From contig NZ_CP035282.1 of NCBI RefSeq assembly GCF_004103715.1, forward strand, positions 2,408,673-2,472,672: a stretch of DNA of 64,000 bases, written 5' to 3'. Of the stretch, positions 29,073 through 38,232 are shown piece after piece (position 1 is the first letter of the stretch; each line of letters begins with the position of its first letter). The DNA is from Acidilutibacter cellobiosedens (lineage in GTDB: Bacteria > Bacillota > Clostridia > Tissierellales > Acidilutibacteraceae). The translations under genes were made by a program, and so were the position numbers. The notes beneath the pieces are model-generated. The model did no database searches, was not told where the DNA came from, and saw only the letters and a list, made by a program, of their open reading frames with translations.

Positions 29073-29462
29073 TTAATAGCTAAGATAATCTATTTCATTT
29101 TCACCATTTTCTCCTTTGATTTCAATTATTAGTCTATTCGGCAAGCAAACTATCGTTTCTCCAGGCTTAGAAATATATCGCTGCTTCACATCTAATTTAT
29201 CAGGACAATCTGCCTCAATTACTCTAACTTTTTCATCCCCTATTTCTATTAAATTATAACCGTATTTCGTTTTAATTGGTATGGTTTTTCCTACCATTTT
29301 CGGATTAAAAGTAATTTTTTTGTACTCCTTCCCATTCACTTGAATACTAATATATTTTGAATTATACGATGTTGCATCTCTTTCCACATATATAATAGAA
29401 ATTAGGCTTATGATTATAATAATGATTATTAAATATTTATCTCCTTTTGTCAATAGAAACAC
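29073..29462 (-). CDS. NusG domain II-containing exported protein
   Basis: A 129-residue protein with an N-terminal membrane helix (about residues 9-24) and one beta-rich domain (YISIQVNGKEYKKITF, NLIEIGDEKVRVIEADCPD, ETIVCLPNRLIIEI). This matches the stand-alone NusG domain II family found next to Gx transporters and often near flavin-linked Rnf or ApbE genes. Neither of those lies here. Function unknown; extracytoplasmic location inferred. Confidence 0.82.
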   Translation of the reverse strand: MFLLTKGDKYLIIIIIIISLISIIYVERDATSYNSKYISIQVNGKEYKKITFNPKMVGKTIPIKTKYGYNLIEIGDEKVRVIEADCPDKLDVKQRYISKPGETIVCLPNRLIIEIKGENGENEIDYLSY

Positions 29463-29555: not shown

Positions 29556-29590
29556 ACAAAAAATACCCTAACTACTTCATAGGGTATTTA
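29556..29590 (-). terminator. Terminator after the hydrogenase-like signalling operon
   Basis: On the minus strand AAATACCCTA pairs with TAGGGTATTT around a nine-base loop, followed by T residues. It ends the six-gene cluster that finishes at 29644 and insulates it from the NusG domain II gene. Confidence 0.82.
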
Positions 29591-29643
29591 TAAAATCCAC
29601 AAAATCAAAGGACAATTGTATAAAAAAGTTTTCCATGGAATCA

Positions 29644-30195
29644 TTAATACATCTTTTTCTTAATTTCAGCTATATTATCGTTAATGTAATCCCTTATCCA
29701 TAGCAATATATCGGGACTGTTTATATCAACAGAACCAAGAATTTTCTTTATTTGTATCGTATCGAAGATAAACTCATTTTTGTCATAAATATGTTTATAA
29801 TAAATATCTACGTCTTTATTTGTGTTGATTAAAGTCATTATTGTCTGTCCCATGTTTCCAAGGGGTTCCCTGTCTATGTGAAAATATTTGAAAGAAAATT
29901 TTATCCTTGTTCCCTTGCCTTTCACAGATTCAATATTAAAATCTCCGCCACACTGTTTAGCCGCCTGCTCGGTTAATGGAATTCCCAGTCCTACTTTTCT
30001 TGTCTTTCTCGTTGTTACAAAAGGGTTAACCGCATTATTGGCAGTATATTCATCCATTCCCTTACCGTCATCATCTATCTCAACAGATAAGATATCATTT
30101 TTCGTATCTTCATTTATTACTATAGTTATTTTATTTGCTTCAGCATCTATAGAATTTATGCCCAAATCTAAAACATGAAGTGACAGTTCTTTCAT
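29644..30195 (-). CDS. GHKL-fold ATP-binding protein of a hydrogenase-like signalling cluster
   Basis: A 183-residue protein consisting mainly of a histidine-kinase-type ATPase domain without a phospho-acceptor domain. Visible are the N box (VLDLGINSIDAEA), the DDDGKGMD G1 motif, a lid with TTRKTRKVGLGIPL and the GKGTRIKFSF G3 motif. About 60 extra C-terminal residues have no match I recognise. The start codon overlaps the PHP gene by four bases (ATGA). It is the last gene of the cluster. It may be a serine kinase or anti-sigma-like switch; the substrate is unknown. Confidence 0.82.
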   Translation of the reverse strand: MKELSLHVLDLGINSIDAEANKITIVINEDTKNDILSVEIDDDGKGMDEYTANNAVNPFVTTRKTRKVGLGIPLTEQAAKQCGGDFNIESVKGKGTRIKFSFKYFHIDREPLGNMGQTIMTLINTNKDVDIYYKHIYDKNEFIFDTIQIKKILGSVDINSPDILLWIRDYINDNIAEIKKKMY

Positions 30196-30917
30196 TTTAT
30201 CCGTTTCTCCTTATTTCTTAGATACCTAAAAACTTCATTTAAATTCAAACTGCTCAATTCCATAAAATTTTCGGCTTCGTTTATTTGCCATAGATCATGG
30301 GCATCCGAATTCGTAATGATATTATAAATGCCCTTTATGTTCATTTTTTCTATCATTTCTTCATTGCATTCAGAAGAAATTTCCACAGTGGATATGTCTA
30401 AATTTTTTGGAATAAATCCGAGGACAGACAGTATACTGTAAGATTTCCTGTCTATATGGGCAGGAACAATTATTCCGTTATATTTCTTAACTAATTTATC
30501 TATTTCATCTATAGAATAGCTGCTGGCACTGGTAAGAAGCTTCTCTTCCCTATATATTACAGAATCCTCTTCATCTAATGCCAGCTGTTGTCCAAAAAAT
30601 TTTTCTGCATTTTTTATGTCAGGAATACTATCATATATCAGTTTCCCAAATTCCAATCCTTCTTCAATATTCCTAAAATAACAGAGAATATGAACCTCTT
30701 CTTTCGTATTTACTTCCATTCCCGGTATCAATAGTATTCCTCTTTTATATGCAATTTTTTCTGCTGAACTTACATTTATCATTGAATTATGATCCGTTAT
30801 GGAAATAATATTGAGCTTTTTTATATATGCCATATTCACAATATTGTTAGGCGTCATATCATCAGATGCACATGGAGATAAAGACGAATGTATATGCATA
30901 TCAAAAGAATATTTCAT
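30192..30917 (-). CDS. PHP-domain phosphoesterase
   Basis: A 241-residue PHP (polymerase and histidinol phosphatase) domain protein. Metal-site motifs in order: DMHIHSSLSPC (HxH at about 8-10), SITDHNS, PGMEVNTKEEVHIL, PAHIDR and TNSDAHD. Stand-alone members hydrolyse phosphoester bonds of nucleotides or related small molecules, but the substrate here is unknown. It lies in a six-gene operon with DRTGG, GHKL and HsfB-like proteins, so a signalling nucleotide or phospho-protein is plausible; this is inference. Confidence 0.86.
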   Translation of the reverse strand: MKYSFDMHIHSSLSPCASDDMTPNNIVNMAYIKKLNIISITDHNSMINVSSAEKIAYKRGILLIPGMEVNTKEEVHILCYFRNIEEGLEFGKLIYDSIPDIKNAEKFFGQQLALDEEDSVIYREEKLLTSASSYSIDEIDKLVKKYNGIIVPAHIDRKSYSILSVLGFIPKNLDISTVEISSECNEEMIEKMNIKGIYNIITNSDAHDLWQINEAENFMELSSLNLNEVFRYLRNKEKRIK

Positions 30918-30918
30918 A

Positions 30919-31248
30919 TTAAATACCCAAATTATTTAATTGACAGGCAATTTCATAACTGGTAAGTTTAGATTTAAATAAAGCTACTTTTTCCTCTTTA
31001 GCTTTTTCAACAGTATTTTTATCAATTTCCATATCTTCAGCTATGATTATGCCGGACATATTTACTAAAACAGCAACTGCAATAATATTAATATGAGTCT
31101 GAATGGTAATCCAAATATTGTTTTCTTTTCCATTGGCCATCACAACACTTAACAAATCTCCTATATATGCTCCGTCGACTTCCCTGTTTTCATCAAATCC
31201 CCCTATTGCTTCCAATTTTAAATTTTCAGCTATATCTTTAAGTTTCAT
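30919..31248 (-). CDS. DRTGG-domain protein
   Basis: A 109-residue protein matching the DRTGG fold (MKLKDIAENLKLEAIGGFDENREVDGAYIGDLLSVVMANGKENNIWITIQTH in its first half; read in pieces). DRTGG domains occur with CBS domains and in phosphotransacetylases and are thought to sense small ligands. The ATG overlaps the HsfB-like gene by four bases and has a GGAGG site. A second, related gene is at the head of the same operon. Confidence 0.82.
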   Translation of the reverse strand: MKLKDIAENLKLEAIGGFDENREVDGAYIGDLLSVVMANGKENNIWITIQTHINIIAVAVLVNMSGIIIAEDMEIDKNTVEKAKEEKVALFKSKLTSYEIACQLNNLGI

Positions 31249-32534
31249 ATTTCTCCTCCATCATCATTTAATTTTTTCAAATCCTTTATAAATATGCAAT
31301 CTTTTACTTGGGCAAAACCCCTTATGGTATCTTCCGCCAAAGCATGACAAGTTGGAGCTCCGCAAGAACCGCAGTCAAGTCCCGGTAATGCGTTTTCTAT
31401 TCTTTTCATTCTTGCCAATTTTTCCATCGCCCTATTTATATCCTCATCTAAATTCAATATTCCCTTCTGTTCAATTTTATTTGTCCAATTTATAATTCCA
31501 TTTTCTAATATCTTCTTAATATAATCTTCATCAGTATATTTAGTAGCGGTTACATTATATCCTGTATAGTAAGATAACCTTTCAATAATACTTTTAGCTA
31601 TAAAGGGATTTTCCACATTTAAAGGTCCTCCTACACATCCTCCCATACAAGCTAACCCTTCAAAGTACACTACACTATCAAGCTTTCCAAGTTCCATCTT
31701 CTCCAATACTCCTATTACATTTTCAATTCCGTCTACTGCAATATAATTATCTATTCCAATGGATTTACTCTGCCCCCCTACCGTTGCCCAGCTTATCCCA
31801 TTTACAGTCCCTTTTTCATAATGATTACAGGACTCAATCCTCTTCATCTTTTCAACAACTGGGCCATATATCTTATTTATTGCAATAGCTCCGTTTAATG
31901 AAGACTTCTCTATTCCTATGGGTTTCATGATGCTGGTAACCTTTGCAGGACATGATGCCAAACAAAATACTCCTATTTCTTCTGACTTATAACCATATTG
32001 TCTCTCTGCAGCTTCTCTTGCCAATCTTCCCGCTATTTCCATCGGAGATTCGACATTAACTATATTTTCTATAAGAGAAGGAAATTTAACTTGTATAAGC
32101 CTTAATATTGCCGGGCACATAGAAGATATAATAGGTTTGCGAATATCTTTCCTGTTAATCATATGCTTAATAACATTAGTCAATATATCAGCTGCTATTC
32201 CTTCGTCAAAAACACAATCAAAACCTATTTCCCGAATTCCCTCATATACCCTGTCCATATCTACGCTGCTGTTAAATTGTCCATATAAAGATATGCTTGG
32301 AATAGCTATATTGAATTTAAACTCCTTTAATCTGCTTAAGTCATCTGTAACAGAATTCTGTGCATGACTTGGGCATACTCTTATACATTCTCCGCAATCA
32401 ATACATCTTTCCTTTGTAATAACAGCCTTTTTATTTCTGACCCTTATAGCTTCTGTAGGGCATCGTCGCATGCAATTTGTACACCCTATGCATTTCTCAT
32501 CATTCAATACTACGGAATGAAAATATTCTCTCAT
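31245..32534 (-). CDS. HsfB-type [FeFe]-hydrogenase-like iron-sulfur protein
   Basis: A 429-residue protein. Residues 1-60 hold two ferredoxin-type 4Fe-4S motifs (C15, C18, C21, C25 and C44, C47, C50, C54). The middle is the large-subunit C-terminal domain of [FeFe]-hydrogenase. Its signature sequences are altered but keep four cluster cysteines: SSMCPA (C140), ASCPAK (C195) and LACMGGC (C296, C300). The proton-relay Cys next to C140 is Met139. The C-terminus has a further iron-sulfur domain (C388, C391, C396, C413). Known HsfB-type proteins are proposed redox or H2 sensors rather than producers. The DRTGG, GHKL and PHP genes around it fit that view. Confidence 0.88.
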   Translation of the reverse strand: MREYFHSVVLNDEKCIGCTNCMRRCPTEAIRVRNKKAVITKERCIDCGECIRVCPSHAQNSVTDDLSRLKEFKFNIAIPSISLYGQFNSSVDMDRVYEGIREIGFDCVFDEGIAADILTNVIKHMINRKDIRKPIISSMCPAILRLIQVKFPSLIENIVNVESPMEIAGRLAREAAERQYGYKSEEIGVFCLASCPAKVTSIMKPIGIEKSSLNGAIAINKIYGPVVEKMKRIESCNHYEKGTVNGISWATVGGQSKSIGIDNYIAVDGIENVIGVLEKMELGKLDSVVYFEGLACMGGCVGGPLNVENPFIAKSIIERLSYYTGYNVTATKYTDEDYIKKILENGIINWTNKIEQKGILNLDEDINRAMEKLARMKRIENALPGLDCGSCGAPTCHALAEDTIRGFAQVKDCIFIKDLKKLNDDGGEI

Positions 32535-32560
32535 TTTTCATACCACCTAATCCAATTTTA

Positions 32561-32989
32561 TTAGCTAATATATATTTTCATATTTACAGTTGTTCCCTTA
32601 TTAATTTCTGAAGCAATATCAAATTTATCACAAAATTTTTTCATATTAGGAAGTCCCATTCCTGCACCAAAGCCAAGTTCTCTTATATCATTAGATGCGG
32701 TTGAATATCCTTCCTGCATAACTAAATCAATATCTTCAATTCCTGGGCCTTTATCTTCAGCTATAATTTCTATTTCCTTTGGAGAAATATTTACAAATAT
32801 TTTCCCTCCAATAGAATGAATCACTAAATTCATTTCCGCCTCATAAGTAACTATAGCTGTCCTTCGTACTATTTGGGGATTAATTCCCAGTTGAACAAGA
32901 ATCTTTTTTATATTGCTTGATGCATCCCCTGCAGTAGCAAAATCATTTCTGGCTACTTCATACTCCATATTGATTAAATTATTGCTCAT
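32561..32989 (-). CDS. RsbT/SpoIIAB-like serine kinase (GHKL ATPase)
   Basis: A 142-residue ATP-binding protein of the anti-sigma-factor kinase type: VTYEAEMNLVIHS as N box, EDKGPGIED, and a lid with GFGAGMGLPNMKKFCD. The length and lack of other domains resemble RsbT or RsbW. It overlaps the upstream DRTGG gene by four bases (ATGA). A target sigma factor or antagonist is not encoded in the window. Confidence 0.86.
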   Translation of the reverse strand: MSNNLINMEYEVARNDFATAGDASSNIKKILVQLGINPQIVRRTAIVTYEAEMNLVIHSIGGKIFVNISPKEIEIIAEDKGPGIEDIDLVMQEGYSTASNDIRELGFGAGMGLPNMKKFCDKFDIASEINKGTTVNMKIYIS

Positions 32990-33354
32990 TGGTTGCCAAC
33001 TTCCTTTTTAATAGTAAGTCCCTCTAAATTCTCCTTATATAATTTTCCAGATGCAGTATACATTGTCTCTTCAGTAAACATTATAACAAAGTTCTTCTTT
33101 TTCGCTATCTCAATTATTGTGCTTGCAGGCCTTTTCCCTCTAACAAATACAATTGCCGATAGGTCAACCATCTCCGCCGCCTTCATTATTTGAGGATTAT
33201 TAAGTCCTGTTAAAAGTATAGTTTCCGAATTCACACAAGCAAGTATATCACTCATCAAATCAGAACTAAATGCATACTTCACCTCTCTGTCGAGATATTC
33301 TTCTCCCGTTAAGATTTCTGCATTTAAAATTTCCTTTATTTCTTTAATTTTCAA
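32986..33354 (-). CDS. DRTGG-domain protein, first gene of the redox-signalling operon
   Basis: A 122-residue DRTGG-fold protein starting at a TTG (33352-33354) with GGGAGGTG upstream. Recognisable parts are GEEYLDREVKYAFSSDLMSD, the ligand-pocket-like ILLTGLNNPQIMKAAEM and AIVFVRGKRP. It is longer than the second DRTGG protein of the operon and probably binds a different or the same ligand at another step; that is inference. Confidence 0.83.
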   Translation of the reverse strand: MKIKEIKEILNAEILTGEEYLDREVKYAFSSDLMSDILACVNSETILLTGLNNPQIMKAAEMVDLSAIVFVRGKRPASTIIEIAKKKNFVIMFTEETMYTASGKLYKENLEGLTIKKEVGNQ

Positions 33355-33474: not shown

Positions 33475-35703
33475 TCATGATATTACATTCCGTTTAAACA
33501 GAGTATAGGTAACTGATAAATAACAGATAAATACTAAAATAAAAATTCCATAGATGTTTAAAATATTTGTAAATACCTGATGCTCTGTAACATAAGGGAT
33601 ATATTCCCGATAGTTTGCCTTTGATAAGTAGGCAAAAACTGCTCCTGAACCGCAAAACGCCACTAAAATGGGAATACCAAACCATACGGACATTTGTTGC
33701 CGGATATAACGACTGATTTGTTTTTTATCCACTCCCAGTTTTCCTATAATTTCAAAGCGCTTTTTATGTTCTGTTGCATCTGTAAGCTGCTGCAATGCTA
33801 AAATAGTGAGACATATGACAATTAACACCAAGCTTGTATAAGTTCCCCCAAGACGAAGCATAAGAGAGTTGGATATTCCCTCGTTAAGCTGTAACGTTTT
33901 AAGTCTCACATATCCACTGTCTTTTGGAATAATACCAGTATCGTTTAGCCAATGGCTTACTTCATTATCCATATTTACTGCGAAATCATAAGAAAGAGGC
34001 TCCGTGGTATTTGCAGCATAATAGGTGGTTCCAAGGGTGAGTGTATTACACACAGAATCAGGCAAGATATAAACCGCCTTCATACGGCTTGTAAAAATCC
34101 CCATACCCACATTTATCTGATAATCTGCTCCCTTGGCCTTCGTAAGTGTGCATTCCCCAGCCCGTATTTGTGTATGCAGTTTATTGAATTGCCTTATTTC
34201 ATCAGATAATGCTGTATTAGACCAAGCGACGGCAAAACTGTTTTTGGGCAGGGATATTTCCTCATGTCCCGATAGCCTAAGCAGAGAGTTGTAATCGCTT
34301 AATGAAATGCCAAGAACAGGCATATAATTTTCTATTCTTATATTAAAATCGCTGTCTTTTAGAAAATATGTTTCCACATTTGCGGTACCAGCAACTTCAT
34401 AACCTCCCTTCGCCAAATAAGTATCAATGTATGAATAATCCATTTCTGCCTTTGGTAAATCATTAATATTATCCACTCTTGTATATGCTGAAAAGATTTG
34501 TACGTCGTAGATAGAACGCACTTTCAAATATCCGTCTGCCTGTGCAGTATAGGTAGGCATCCATCCAAGTAAAACAAGTGAACTCATAAAAACGCAGGTC
34601 AAAATTGCCATAGTTTTTGAATTTGTTTTTAATTTTGAAATAATTTGCCCCAACAAAAACAGATTCTGAAACCGGAATTTTTTTGATTTCTTTTTTGCAA
34701 GAACCACCATCCATGAAATACAGCAAAAAAAGGCAACAAGACTAAATATAACCATTCCCATTGAAAGCACCGGGGGAACGAAATTATAAATTCCTCCGCT
34801 GATCATACCCATTCTCAGCATATCATCAATAAGTCCTTGCATTTGTAACAAGAAAATACCTGTTGCCAATCCGGTGACGGAAAGCAGAGCAGCAACCAGA
34901 CTTCCCTCTCTTTTCATTTTACAAGTCGTAACAACAAAGATAGCGGCACAAATCAAAAAAATTATCGTGCCGAATGTACAGGCAGCAACCAGCTTCATTG
35001 CTCTTTGGCCGAATTGATTCCAAAAGGGAATGATCTTTATAAAACAAAGGAGCAAGATACAGATAGCTAAAGCAGAAGATAATATCACACTTGAAAAAAG
35101 CATATCCTTTATGGTAACCGTGCTTTCCGTATTATAGCTGTCATGAAGCATGTCAATTACTTTCTGCTTACGGATTACATGAACGTTTCCAAATCCGATG
35201 ATAATAAACAATGCGGTAAAAAACGTCAGTGTCCATAAAATCGTGTCCGGAAATATCGAAAAATAAAAATGATAAGATTCTCCAAAGGAAGCCATGATAA
35301 TAGCGCTTACAATTTGCGATAGTAATGTCCCAAAGAGAATTCCCATAACAACGGCAATCAGTCCCATTAAGAGCATTTCTATAAAAAACATATAGGCAAC
35401 TGTTCGCTGCTCCATACCCATAATAATTTGTAGTGCAAATTCTTTCTTCCTTCGCTTAATCGTATAGCGATTTACGTAAGAAATCAAAAAAACAAGCAGC
35501 ATGGCAATCAGCGGTATAATAATTTTCATCTTGCCAGAAAAATAATCCAGATTCATTTGAATAGGTAACCTGCTGTTATAAAACGGACTAGTAATGGAAA
35601 GAAATCCATAAAACAAACCCACAGAAAGAACCATGGTCAGCAGATAAATTAAATAATCCTTTGCGGAACGTTTTACATTTCTCAGAGCTAATTTAACGTA
35701 CAT
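33475..35703 (-). CDS. BceB-type ABC transporter permease
   Basis: A 742-residue FtsX-superfamily permease with ten hydrophobic helices and a large extracytoplasmic domain of about 200 residues between helices 7 and 8 (around residues 385-620). This is the hallmark of Bce-type peptide-antibiotic resistance transporters. The ATG at 35701-35703 is chosen over an upstream GTG because AGGTG sits nine bases before it. It overlaps the ATPase gene by 11 bases. Base composition is visibly richer in GC than in the core genes to the left. Confidence 0.9.
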   Translation of the reverse strand: MYVKLALRNVKRSAKDYLIYLLTMVLSVGLFYGFLSITSPFYNSRLPIQMNLDYFSGKMKIIIPLIAMLLVFLISYVNRYTIKRRKKEFALQIIMGMEQRTVAYMFFIEMLLMGLIAVVMGILFGTLLSQIVSAIIMASFGESYHFYFSIFPDTILWTLTFFTALFIIIGFGNVHVIRKQKVIDMLHDSYNTESTVTIKDMLFSSVILSSALAICILLLCFIKIIPFWNQFGQRAMKLVAACTFGTIIFLICAAIFVVTTCKMKREGSLVAALLSVTGLATGIFLLQMQGLIDDMLRMGMISGGIYNFVPPVLSMGMVIFSLVAFFCCISWMVVLAKKKSKKFRFQNLFLLGQIISKLKTNSKTMAILTCVFMSSLVLLGWMPTYTAQADGYLKVRSIYDVQIFSAYTRVDNINDLPKAEMDYSYIDTYLAKGGYEVAGTANVETYFLKDSDFNIRIENYMPVLGISLSDYNSLLRLSGHEEISLPKNSFAVAWSNTALSDEIRQFNKLHTQIRAGECTLTKAKGADYQINVGMGIFTSRMKAVYILPDSVCNTLTLGTTYYAANTTEPLSYDFAVNMDNEVSHWLNDTGIIPKDSGYVRLKTLQLNEGISNSLMLRLGGTYTSLVLIVICLTILALQQLTDATEHKKRFEIIGKLGVDKKQISRYIRQQMSVWFGIPILVAFCGSGAVFAYLSKANYREYIPYVTEHQVFTNILNIYGIFILVFICYLSVTYTLFKRNVIS

Positions 35704-36460
35704 CGGACAGGTCACCTCCCAGCAGTGTCATCACATCAAGGATTTTTCCAAACAATTGTTTACGGGATTGTTCGCCCCTCTGTATTTCTGTGAAAATTCG
35801 CCCATCCTTCAGAAACAGAACCCTCCTGGAATAGCTGGCAGTAAAAGCATCATGAGTAACTATAAGGATAGTTGCATTAAGCTCTTGATTCATGGTTTGA
35901 ATAGTGGTAAGAAGCATTTGTGCGGAATGGCTGTCCAGGGCTCCAGTCGGCTCGTCAGCCAAAATCAGTTTGGGATTATTGATCATTGCCCTGGCACAGG
36001 CACATCGTTGCTTTTGTCCGCCGGAAACCTGATAGGGAAACTTATTCAGAATGGAGAGAATGTCAAGCTTTTCGGCCATTTCCTCCACACGCCGGTCTAT
36101 ATCATTCTCAGGTACTTTATTGATAGTCAAAGCCATGGCAATGTTTTCACCTATAGTCAGGGTATCCAGAAGGTTAAAATCCTGAAAAACAAAGCCCAAA
36201 TTTTCCCTGCGGAAACGAGCCAAGTTCTTTTCCTTGATTTCCGTAATATCGGTATTATCCAAAAAAATATGGCCGGCACTGACCGTATCAATAGTGGAAA
36301 TACAGTTTAAAAGTGTTGTTTTCCCGGAACCGGAAGCTCCCATAATGGCAATAAACTCACCGTTGCTAACTTCAAAGCTGATATCGTCAATAGCTTTGGT
36401 GATATTTCCCTTGTTCCCATAATATTTTTCAATATGTTCGATCCTTAAAATTTGTTCCAT
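35693..36460 (-). CDS. BceA-type ABC transporter ATPase
   Basis: A 255-residue ATPase of the MacB/Bce class: Walker A GASGSGKTT, Q loop VFQDFNLLD, signature VSGGQKQR, Walker B LILADEPTGALD and the switch His in VTHDAF. It powers the adjacent FtsX-type permease. A GAGGTG site precedes the ATG. The 96-base gap to the kinase gene contains an operator-like repeat array, so this gene starts its own transcript. Confidence 0.93.
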   Translation of the reverse strand: MEQILRIEHIEKYYGNKGNITKAIDDISFEVSNGEFIAIMGASGSGKTTLLNCISTIDTVSAGHIFLDNTDITEIKEKNLARFRRENLGFVFQDFNLLDTLTIGENIAMALTINKVPENDIDRRVEEMAEKLDILSILNKFPYQVSGGQKQRCACARAMINNPKLILADEPTGALDSHSAQMLLTTIQTMNQELNATILIVTHDAFTASYSRRVLFLKDGRIFTEIQRGEQSRKQLFGKILDVMTLLGGDLSDVR

Positions 36461-36482
36461 TTATTTCACCTCATATTCATTT

Positions 36483-36511
36483 TAAGGAATAGAGAAATTA
36501 AAGTGTATCGA
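36483..36511 (-). promoter_or_regulatory. Putative promoter of the bceAB-like genes
   Basis: On the minus strand a weak -35 (TACACT) and a -10 (TAAAAT) are separated by 17 bases, just downstream of the repeat operator at 36515-36545. The weak -35 suits activation by the response regulator. Seen directly; use inferred. Confidence 0.45.
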
Positions 36512-36514
36512 CTT

Positions 36515-36545
36515 TTCTTACACAGTTCTTACAAAAATGTAAGAA
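36515..36545 (-). promoter_or_regulatory. Putative BceR-type operator (11-bp direct repeat plus palindrome)
   Basis: TTCTTACA occurs twice exactly 11 bases apart (36515 and 36526), and its inverse TGTAAGAA follows at 36538, giving the palindrome TTCTTACA-AAAA-TGTAAGAA. It lies between the kinase gene and the transporter ATPase gene. OmpR-family dimers bind direct repeats with an 11-bp (one-turn) phase, so this is a likely site for the regulator encoded at 37567-38232. Confidence 0.65.
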
Positions 36546-36556
36546 GTACAGAAATT

Positions 36557-37570
36557 TCACCCCCGAACTTTAACAAAGTCACCTTTTGGAAAACTAAGTT
36601 CTATTGTCGTCCCCTGCCCTTGCTTTGAATGGGCTGAAATGCCGATACCTAATTTGTCACACAGCCGTTTGCATAAGTACAAACCGATGCCTGTAGAATT
36701 TCTGCCGGTTCTTCCGTTTTTGCCGGTAAAGCCTTTATCAAAAATTCGCGGCAAATCGCTTGCGGAAATTCCGATGCCATTGTCTCGAATAAGGAGCTTA
36801 ACCTTGCTCTGCTCAGAACAAGACTCAAAAATCAAAAGAGGATGATCGCTTCTGTATTTTACCCCGTTGACAATAAGCTGATTTAAAATAAAACCAATCC
36901 ATTTCTCGTCGGTATAAACGGTATATTCACAATTCTCTACCCGGACGGAAATATGGTTTTGAAGAAGAAGTTGTTTGTTTTCCCCAATGGCGGCATGAAC
37001 CATATCCGATAAAACGACTTCTTTAATCAGATAATCCTTTTCCACATTTTCGCTGCGGGCATAGTAGAGCGCCTGATCTACAAAATGGCTGATTTTCTCT
37101 AACTCTGCCATTACCTTTCTTGTAGTATCGGATTTATTGTTTTCACATACAAGCTGCATAGCGGCGATAGGTGTTTTTACATCATGTATCCATTGTTCGA
37201 TATATTCCTTATATTCTCCCCGTTCCCGCTTAGAGCGAGATACCTCTTCTATCATGGATTTATTAGATGTCCTCAAAATATTATAATATATTTTGTCATC
37301 CTCTCGTGTCGGCATATCCATCACTTCAGCAATCAGATACTTTTTATCCAAACTGTCAAGCTGTAAAAGAATTTGTTTAAAATATCTGTATCGAAAACAG
37401 TAACATATGCCTATATAAAAAATTACAATCAAAGCCCATGAGATAAGAAGAATACAGATGATATCTTTATCAATGTTTACTGCAGACATGAAAACAGTAA
37501 AACCTACCATGGAAAGAATATGAGTAATGATGCAAGGAATCTGATCCTTTAAATAATCCCTGCAGCTCAT
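36557..37570 (-). CDS. BceS-type intramembrane-sensing histidine kinase
   Basis: A 337-residue kinase with two N-terminal transmembrane helices and almost no loop between them, as in intramembrane-sensing kinases that read the state of a Bce transporter. The H box is WIHDVKTPIAAM, N box NQLIVNGVKY, then DNGIGI and GRNSTGIGLYL. Its ATG overlaps the regulator stop (ATGA), so the pair is co-translated. Confidence 0.92.
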   Translation of the reverse strand: MSCRDYLKDQIPCIITHILSMVGFTVFMSAVNIDKDIICILLISWALIVIFYIGICYCFRYRYFKQILLQLDSLDKKYLIAEVMDMPTREDDKIYYNILRTSNKSMIEEVSRSKRERGEYKEYIEQWIHDVKTPIAAMQLVCENNKSDTTRKVMAELEKISHFVDQALYYARSENVEKDYLIKEVVLSDMVHAAIGENKQLLLQNHISVRVENCEYTVYTDEKWIGFILNQLIVNGVKYRSDHPLLIFESCSEQSKVKLLIRDNGIGISASDLPRIFDKGFTGKNGRTGRNSTGIGLYLCKRLCDKLGIGISAHSKQGQGTTIELSFPKGDFVKVRG

Positions 37571-38232
37571 ATCATATACCCCTGACGGTGTTTGGTTTGG
37601 ATCAAATCCGCCACTCCTATTTGCCTGAGCTTATCCCTAAGCCTTGTTATATTCACACTCAAAGCATTATCATCTATATAAAGCTGATTATCCCAAAGAT
37701 ATTCCACTAAATCTGCACGAGGAACAATTTTCCCGGCATTCTTAAAAAGAAAAACCAAAATCTTTAATTCGTTTTTTGTGAGTTCAGCAAAGTTATTTTG
37801 ATATTCTACCTTACTGCTTTCCAAATGCAGGGTTATTTCATGATAGGTCATTAAATCTACCTGTCCCGAGGCATAGGCACGTTTCAGCAGAGAAGCAATA
37901 CGAGCTAACAAGATGGAGGTATTATAAGGTTTCGTGATAAAATCATCCCCACCTAACATAATACTGTTCAATTCGTCCATATCCGTATCTCGGCTTGTTA
38001 CGAAAATAATAGGCACATTTGAAAAGGTACGAATGTTAGAGCATATTTTAAAACCATCCTGTACAGGCAGATTTATATCCAGTAAAATCAAATGAGGGTT
38101 ACAATTTTTTATATCATTGATAATGTTTGAAAAATTCATCGGGATATTAACGGAATAACCGCTGCCTCTCAAAAGAACAGATAATTCTTCCCGAATTACA
38201 GGGTCGTCTTCAATAATCATTATTTTATACAT
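37567..38232 (-). CDS. BceR-type OmpR-family response regulator
   Basis: A 221-residue regulator: receiver with EDD at 8-10, phospho-acceptor Asp in ILLDINLP (about residue 52), Thr/Ser in FVTSRD and Lys in FITKPYN. A winged-helix output domain follows, with LTKNELKILVFLF and DDNALSVNITRLR. AAGGAG precedes the ATG. It heads the four-gene regulator-kinase-ATPase-permease module that ends at 33475. The inducing peptide is unknown. Confidence 0.93.
   Translation of the reverse strand: MYKIMIIEDDPVIREELSVLLRGSGYSVNIPMNFSNIINDIKNCNPHLILLDINLPVQDGFKICSNIRTFSNVPIIFVTSRDTDMDELNSIMLGGDDFITKPYNTSILLARIASLLKRAYASGQVDLMTYHEITLHLESSKVEYQNNFAELTKNELKILVFLFKNAGKIVPRADLVEYLWDNQLYIDDNALSVNITRLRDKLRQIGVADLIQTKHRQGYMI

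Follow-up and report, generated by a model that had tools for sequence, protein, structure and literature searches.

A conserved six-gene sensor cassette in Acidilutibacter cellobiosedens, probably a redox- or H2-responsive switch for Rnf or HydABC

The window, that is the whole 64,000-nucleotide stretch analysed here, carries on its minus strand a six-gene cassette running from 33354 to 29644. The first gene (32986..33354) codes for a single-domain DRTGG protein, DRTGG1 (Pfam PF07085, 9.5e-10), and is followed by genes for a RsbW/SpoIIAB-like GHKL Ser/Thr kinase-type ATPase (32561..32989; Pfam HATPase_c 6.9e-9), a HydS-like sensor (31245..32534; Pfam Fer4, Fe_hyd_lg_C 8.2e-27 and the FeS domain PF04060 2.4e-11), a second single-domain DRTGG protein, DRTGG2 (30919..31248; Pfam DRTGG 1.1e-5), a PHP-family metal-dependent phosphoesterase (30192..30917; Pfam PHP 1.1e-7) and a stand-alone histidine-kinase-type ATPase, GHKL2 (29644..30195; Pfam HATPase_c 1.4e-13). 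An earlier, sequence-only reading had described a six-gene cluster with two DRTGG proteins, two GHKL ATPases and a PHP phosphoesterase around an iron-sulfur sensor, with four-base overlaps at several junctions, and this description is borne out by the ORF check and the Pfam domains. The overlaps of 4 bp are present at three of the five junctions (DRTGG1/RsbW-like, HydS/DRTGG2 and PHP/GHKL2), with gaps of 1 bp between DRTGG2 and PHP and 26 bp between the RsbW-like gene and HydS.

GHKL2 is followed by a terminator-like stem-loop with T residues (29560..29595, minus strand; -14.4 kcal/mol, z -3.07), lying at the site where rnfC begins in relatives, and because of this structure the cassette unit probably ends after GHKL2. 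The hairpin is absent from the list of a consensus scan, probably owing to its 9-nt loop. Next comes the gene for a NusG_II protein (29073..29462, minus strand), a flanking marker which is found after rnfB in relatives and directly after GHKL2 here. A promoter scan gave nothing above chance and no Rex box was found before it, though Rex-like sites precede some Hyd-linked cassettes and hydC. Upstream of the cassette (33475-38232) there is a BceAB-like ABC transporter with its two-component system, a block standing where relatives carry the polA/coaE/dinB genes that flank the cassette or rnf.

The sensor HydS is a protein of 429 aa with two N-terminal [4Fe-4S] motifs and a Cx2Cx4Cx16C cluster at its C-terminal end. 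Its H-domain keeps all four H-cluster cysteines (C140, C195, C296 and C300), which together with the eight N-terminal cysteines are invariant in the alignment of HydS homologues. The proton-transfer cysteine C299 is absent, with a Met at position 139 in its place. No PAS domain was detected with Pfam, a domain that in group C sensors follows the FeS domain. From these sequence features HydS is classed as a sensor of the group D (M2e) [FeFe]-hydrogenase-like type, a type already known, which agrees with the iron-sulfur sensor proposed for the centre of the cluster. Replacement of M353 by Ser or Thr is described as a well-conserved property of group D (PMC8163306) and is seen in 51 of 53 members of the clade, the window HydS having an alanine (Ala193) at this position.

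By its published description, the group D sensor TamHydS of Thermoanaerobacter mathranii (PMC8163306, PMC13104023) shares with the window protein the two N-terminal [4Fe-4S] motifs, the H-domain cysteines, the loss of C299, the C-terminal Cx2Cx4Cx16C cluster and the lack of a PAS domain. Its congener Thermoanaerobacter wiegelii has the same cassette ahead of hydABC, with a HydS that is 47% identical to that of the window over 432 aa. The window clade differs from TamHydS in being linked to rnf and not to hydABC, and in the residue at the C299 position. Of 77 Hyd-linked homologues, 63 have Ala there; in Rnf-linked ones the residue is N, L, H, Y, F or M, hinting at a different pocket. A sequence search of the PDB returned no solved group D structure. 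The route by which group D sensors signal without a PAS domain was left open by the TamHydS papers (PMC8163306, PMC13104023).

HydF and HydG were not found above cut-off in about 24 of the 55 cassette-bearing genomes, and these genomes carry a canonical HydA. Near-complete same-order genomes (G038, G014, G028, G018, G019, G032, G033 and others) have canonical group A [FeFe]-hydrogenases and no HydF or HydG match above cut-off, pointing either to an unusual maturation or to assembly gaps. As such genomes still hold canonical HydA, the presence of maturases was dropped as a means of telling H2 sensing from redox sensing.

The statement of the sequence-only reading that the window has no catalytic hydrogenase holds, and four other Fe_hyd proteins, including the bifurcating hydABC, are encoded elsewhere in the genome. 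There is also an hfsBCD-like operon (L010:8530-12913) with a PAS-bearing candidate group C sensor and a PP2C-like phosphatase, so that sensors of both types occur in this genome, the one partnered by a phosphatase and the other by a kinase. Group C HydS/HfsB and its PP2C-like partner HfsC (PMC11837493) resemble the cassette in that an H-domain sensor with an FeS domain in its C-terminal part is paired with a protein of phospho-signalling. However, HfsB has a PAS domain and a phosphatase as partner, whereas the cassette has the RsbW-like kinase, and the two sensors are about 29% identical.

The product of the second gene had previously been labelled RsbT-like, for which SpoIIAB/RsbW-like is a better description. 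It matches the anti-sigma F factor model at 7.1e-16, but with 58 bits against the family cut-off of 135, and SpoIIAB structures match it at 2e-9. It has the fold, the N-box glutamate and the ATP-binding motifs of the SpoIIAB/RsbW anti-sigma kinases. Its N-box (E50/N54/H58), G1 (DxGPG) and G2 (GFGAGMGLPN) motifs show little or no variation among 124 homologues, with the catalytic glutamate E50 and N54 strictly invariant. As the sequence-only reading had noted for both GHKL ATPases, a HisKA or other phospho-acceptor domain, as expected of a two-component histidine kinase, was found in neither (Pfam).

Kinases of the SpoIIAB type classically phosphorylate STAS proteins. A search of the genome with the Pfam STAS model alone gave only two such proteins, both of which have an RsbW-type kinase and a sigma factor of their own alongside, and neither a STAS anti-anti-sigma protein nor a sigma factor paired with the cassette was found, in which respect it differs from the SpoIIAB/RsbW systems. 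These results bear on an explanation by transcriptional control, in which the kinase would act by partner switching, with a sigma factor or another transcription factor as its target, and the state of HydS would alter rnf or hyd transcription. The match of the kinase to the anti-sigma F profile and SpoIIAB structures speaks for it, as does the PP2C-like phosphatase beside group C sensors (hfsBC), this being the opposite activity in classical partner switching. However, both STAS proteins are already paired, the loci examined have no sigma factor or DNA-binding protein in the cassette, and GHKL2 tracks an enzyme and no regulator, so that control of this kind is considered unlikely. Anti-sigma/STAS partner switching in particular is disfavoured, there being no free partner among the Pfam STAS proteins of the genome. 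With both of these accounted for, the preferred mechanism is a phospho-switch acting directly on proteins of the cassette or on the enzyme.

The DRTGG1 gene has a TTG start with a strong Shine-Dalgarno sequence. Residues D32, S35 and D36 and the VRGK motif are invariant among 125 homologues of its product, from which the window protein departs at R58K, T59A and G109N. DRTGG2 is a diverged paralogue of DRTGG1 (27% identity). The PHP enzyme has the complete metal ligand set (H8, H10, D42, H43, E68, H76, H154, D205 and H207), invariant in 120 homologues, and its AF2 model (pLDDT 95.7) is similar to EndoQ, RNase AM and a PHP enzyme with bound AMP. A literature search for DRTGG proteins linked with hydrogenase or Rnf returned nothing relevant.

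Among 150 genomes of the same order searched for HydS, about 55 have an orthologue. The gene order of the cassette is unchanged in about 50 loci or genomes of the order, far beyond what is expected by chance. Of 110 loci with enough flanking sequence on either side, among them named loci contributed by a genome-wide scan, 104 contain all five core genes, a figure conditional on HydS because the loci were found through it. The frequent separation of the genes in relatives that would have spoken against their acting as one unit is thus not seen. Twenty same-order genomes were scored as HydS-negative; in 19 of them rnfC has no gene of the cassette beside it, and the twentieth is uninformative as its contig ends inside GHKL2. 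Many of these genomes have dinB, or its usual neighbours, and then rnfC directly. Where the cassette is missing, it is thus cleanly absent as a unit from the rnfC neighbourhood.

In same-order relatives the cassette is followed by rnfC, D, G, E, A and B and then by nusG_II and hpreI. This rnfCDGEAB operon comes next in 48 of the 49 same-order loci with room downstream, the window being the only exception. A second same-order locus without rnf downstream, besides the window, is a solo paralogue (L042). A hydrogenase neighbour had been expected for this lineage, an expectation which was dropped when the HydB-like matches downstream proved to be RnfC and RnfB. In the window 180 bp between GHKL2 and nusG_II replace the entire rnf operon. 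The rnfCDGEA genes of this genome lie at 1.98 Mb, about 450 kb from the cassette, and are followed, right after rnfA, by a truncated rnfB of about 91 aa (L100:11865-12140, about 1.986 Mb), of which the FeS domain PF04060 alone remains. No full-length rnfB was found elsewhere in the genome, and because of this and the truncation the Rnf of this organism may be altered or may not function. In a concatenated Rnf tree the rnf genes of this genome stand among the expected relatives, as vertical descent predicts, so that relocation of the operon is indicated, with no support for its replacement by horizontal transfer. The window cassette is therefore intact but separated from its usual enzyme, Rnf.

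One explanation for this particular genome is that the cassette is a relic, with its target Rnf broken and its six genes decaying. Eleven of 250 conserved positions deviate, mostly in DRTGG1, the highest number among the complete sets of the order, and with this slightly raised divergence and no enzyme alongside the cassette may be drifting; the relocated rnf operon, with no full rnfB found in the genome, points the same way. On the other hand, all six frames are intact, the catalytic residues are kept, the overlaps are preserved, and hydABC and hfsBCD could serve as targets in trans. That the cassette is already a relic is therefore regarded as rather improbable.

In most other Clostridia, examples being Thermoanaerobacter wiegelii, Acetivibrio and Christensenella, the core of the cassette is followed by hydC, GHKL2, a 2Fe2S-like gene, hydB and hydA, coding for the bifurcating hydrogenase. 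Rex-like boxes (0-1 mismatch, above shuffled sequence) lie before hydC in six Hyd-linked loci (L141, L145, L121, L134, L122 and L114). In a small clade there are hybrid loci (L117, L127, L128 and L142) with the cassette, hydC, GHKL2, the 2Fe2S gene and hydB, without hydA, and then rnf, which may encode an unusual NuoEF-Rnf combination. In Tepidanaerobacter, hyd is reported to adjoin rnf (PMC4374699), and this arrangement and the hybrid loci suggest a possible route of the cassette between the two enzymes. In the HydS tree the window falls in a single Rnf-linked clade with 50 rows (support 98), and three Rnf/Hyd partner changes are needed in all, the partner labels of L120 and L176 having been assigned as Hyd by hand after reading of their neighbourhoods.

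The gene which stays with the enzyme at nearly every locus is GHKL2: in 49 cases rnfC comes next, and in 46 the 2Fe2S/hydB pair does. Even in genomes whose five-gene core is encoded at another site, GHKL2 still adjoins hydC, the 2Fe2S gene or hydB, in all 13 of those with a match. Its N, G1 and G2 boxes (D10/N14, DxGxGM and GLG) are conserved in more than 100 homologues, as is a private motif, D108-R-x-P-x-G. Over about 100 residues the AF2 model (pLDDT 90.8) aligns with histidine kinases, longer structural alignments to GyrB/MutL-type ATPases being loose, and there is a conserved C-terminal extension, alpha/beta in the model. HydB and RnfC both contain the NuoF-type flavoprotein domain Complex1_51K (1.6e-48 and 1.5e-54, respectively), which is the likely common target. 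As GHKL2 stays beside the enzyme and the two subunits share this domain, the most economical inference is that it acts on the flavoprotein subunit.

The position of GHKL2 inside the enzyme operon and the flavoprotein domain common to HydB and RnfC would also suit a role in assembly or maturation, with the ATPases, DRTGG proteins and PHP enzyme building or inserting the cofactors of the flavo-iron-sulfur enzyme and HydS as electron donor or scaffold. HydE of the Acetobacterium woodii hyd operon (Awo_c27000), which has been suggested to function in assembly or signalling (PMC3315566), is by its description a stand-alone histidine-kinase-type ATPase like GHKL2 in kind and operon setting; it differs in that GHKL2 of the window lineage is joined to a six-gene cassette and precedes rnfC. 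However, most same-order genomes have rnf but no cassette, rnfC being above cut-off in 147 of the 150, and the hydABC operon of the window genome has no GHKL2 of its own. An assembly role is thus considered improbable.

Because the cassette lies directly in front of either enzyme in related bacteria, it is probably a switch for HydABC or Rnf, and on balance we favour a reading in which a transferable phospho-signalling unit, responsive to redox state or H2, controls a NuoF-type ferredoxin:NAD oxidoreductase. We infer the direction of the signal and all of the biochemical steps. HydS would sense either H2 or the redox poise of the low-potential pool via its iron-sulfur and H-cluster sites and would signal to the SpoIIAB/RsbW-like kinase. 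The two DRTGG proteins would probably be nucleotide-binding partners or substrates, and the PHP enzyme may strip off the phospho mark, or a nucleotide messenger. GHKL2 would be the output, acting either on the NAD-binding flavoprotein subunit of the enzyme, which is RnfC here and HydB in other Clostridia, or on the assembly of the enzyme, and in the lineage of the window the target enzyme would be the Rnf pump. Against the favoured reading, genomic context differs from function, and Rnf works without the cassette in most same-order genomes; the window copy has no enzyme beside it and may be drifting, and binding of an H-cluster by HydS is made less certain by the genomes without HydF or HydG matches, although these have canonical HydA. 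The interpretation in the sequence-only reading is thus supported in part: the shared target of kinase and phosphatase that it proposed may be something other than a sigma factor, as the cassette tracks an enzyme operon, rnfCDGEAB in this lineage and hydABC in others.

More tentatively, the five-gene sensor core and the enzyme-bound GHKL ATPase might form an exchangeable H2/redox-gated post-translational switch on NuoF-type flavoproteins, which was passed from the bifurcating hydrogenase to Rnf and is now a dedicated Rnf regulator.

That bifurcating hydrogenases of clostridia have kinases and phosphatases encoded upstream was noted earlier (PMC3492117). The same source cites a fourfold fall, when H2 is high, in the hydrogenase activity of Thermoanaerobacter tengcongensis that depends on NAD(H), and places kinase genes upstream of the hydrogenase of this organism. 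In the open-access papers searched, neither the full partner set nor the Rnf linkage was found described; the sensor type is known and the partner set is newly assembled here. Group D sensors have been studied biochemically, and the cassette supplies them with a defined set of partners (a kinase, a phosphoesterase, two DRTGG proteins and a GHKL output) and with two concrete candidate targets, HydABC and Rnf, which have one subunit type in common. If this is correct, a single portable sensor would gate the principal ferredoxin:NAD energy converters of anaerobes, which would be of relevance for H2 yield, acetogenesis and ethanol engineering.

Three further loci (L130, L157 and L170) have an RsbW-like kinase and HydS without DRTGG or PHP genes, near a gene with a GHKL domain (histidine-kinase-like), and represent another wiring of the same sensor. 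In L130 the RsbW-like/HydS pair lies after a response regulator and before a second HydS-like protein of 637 aa.
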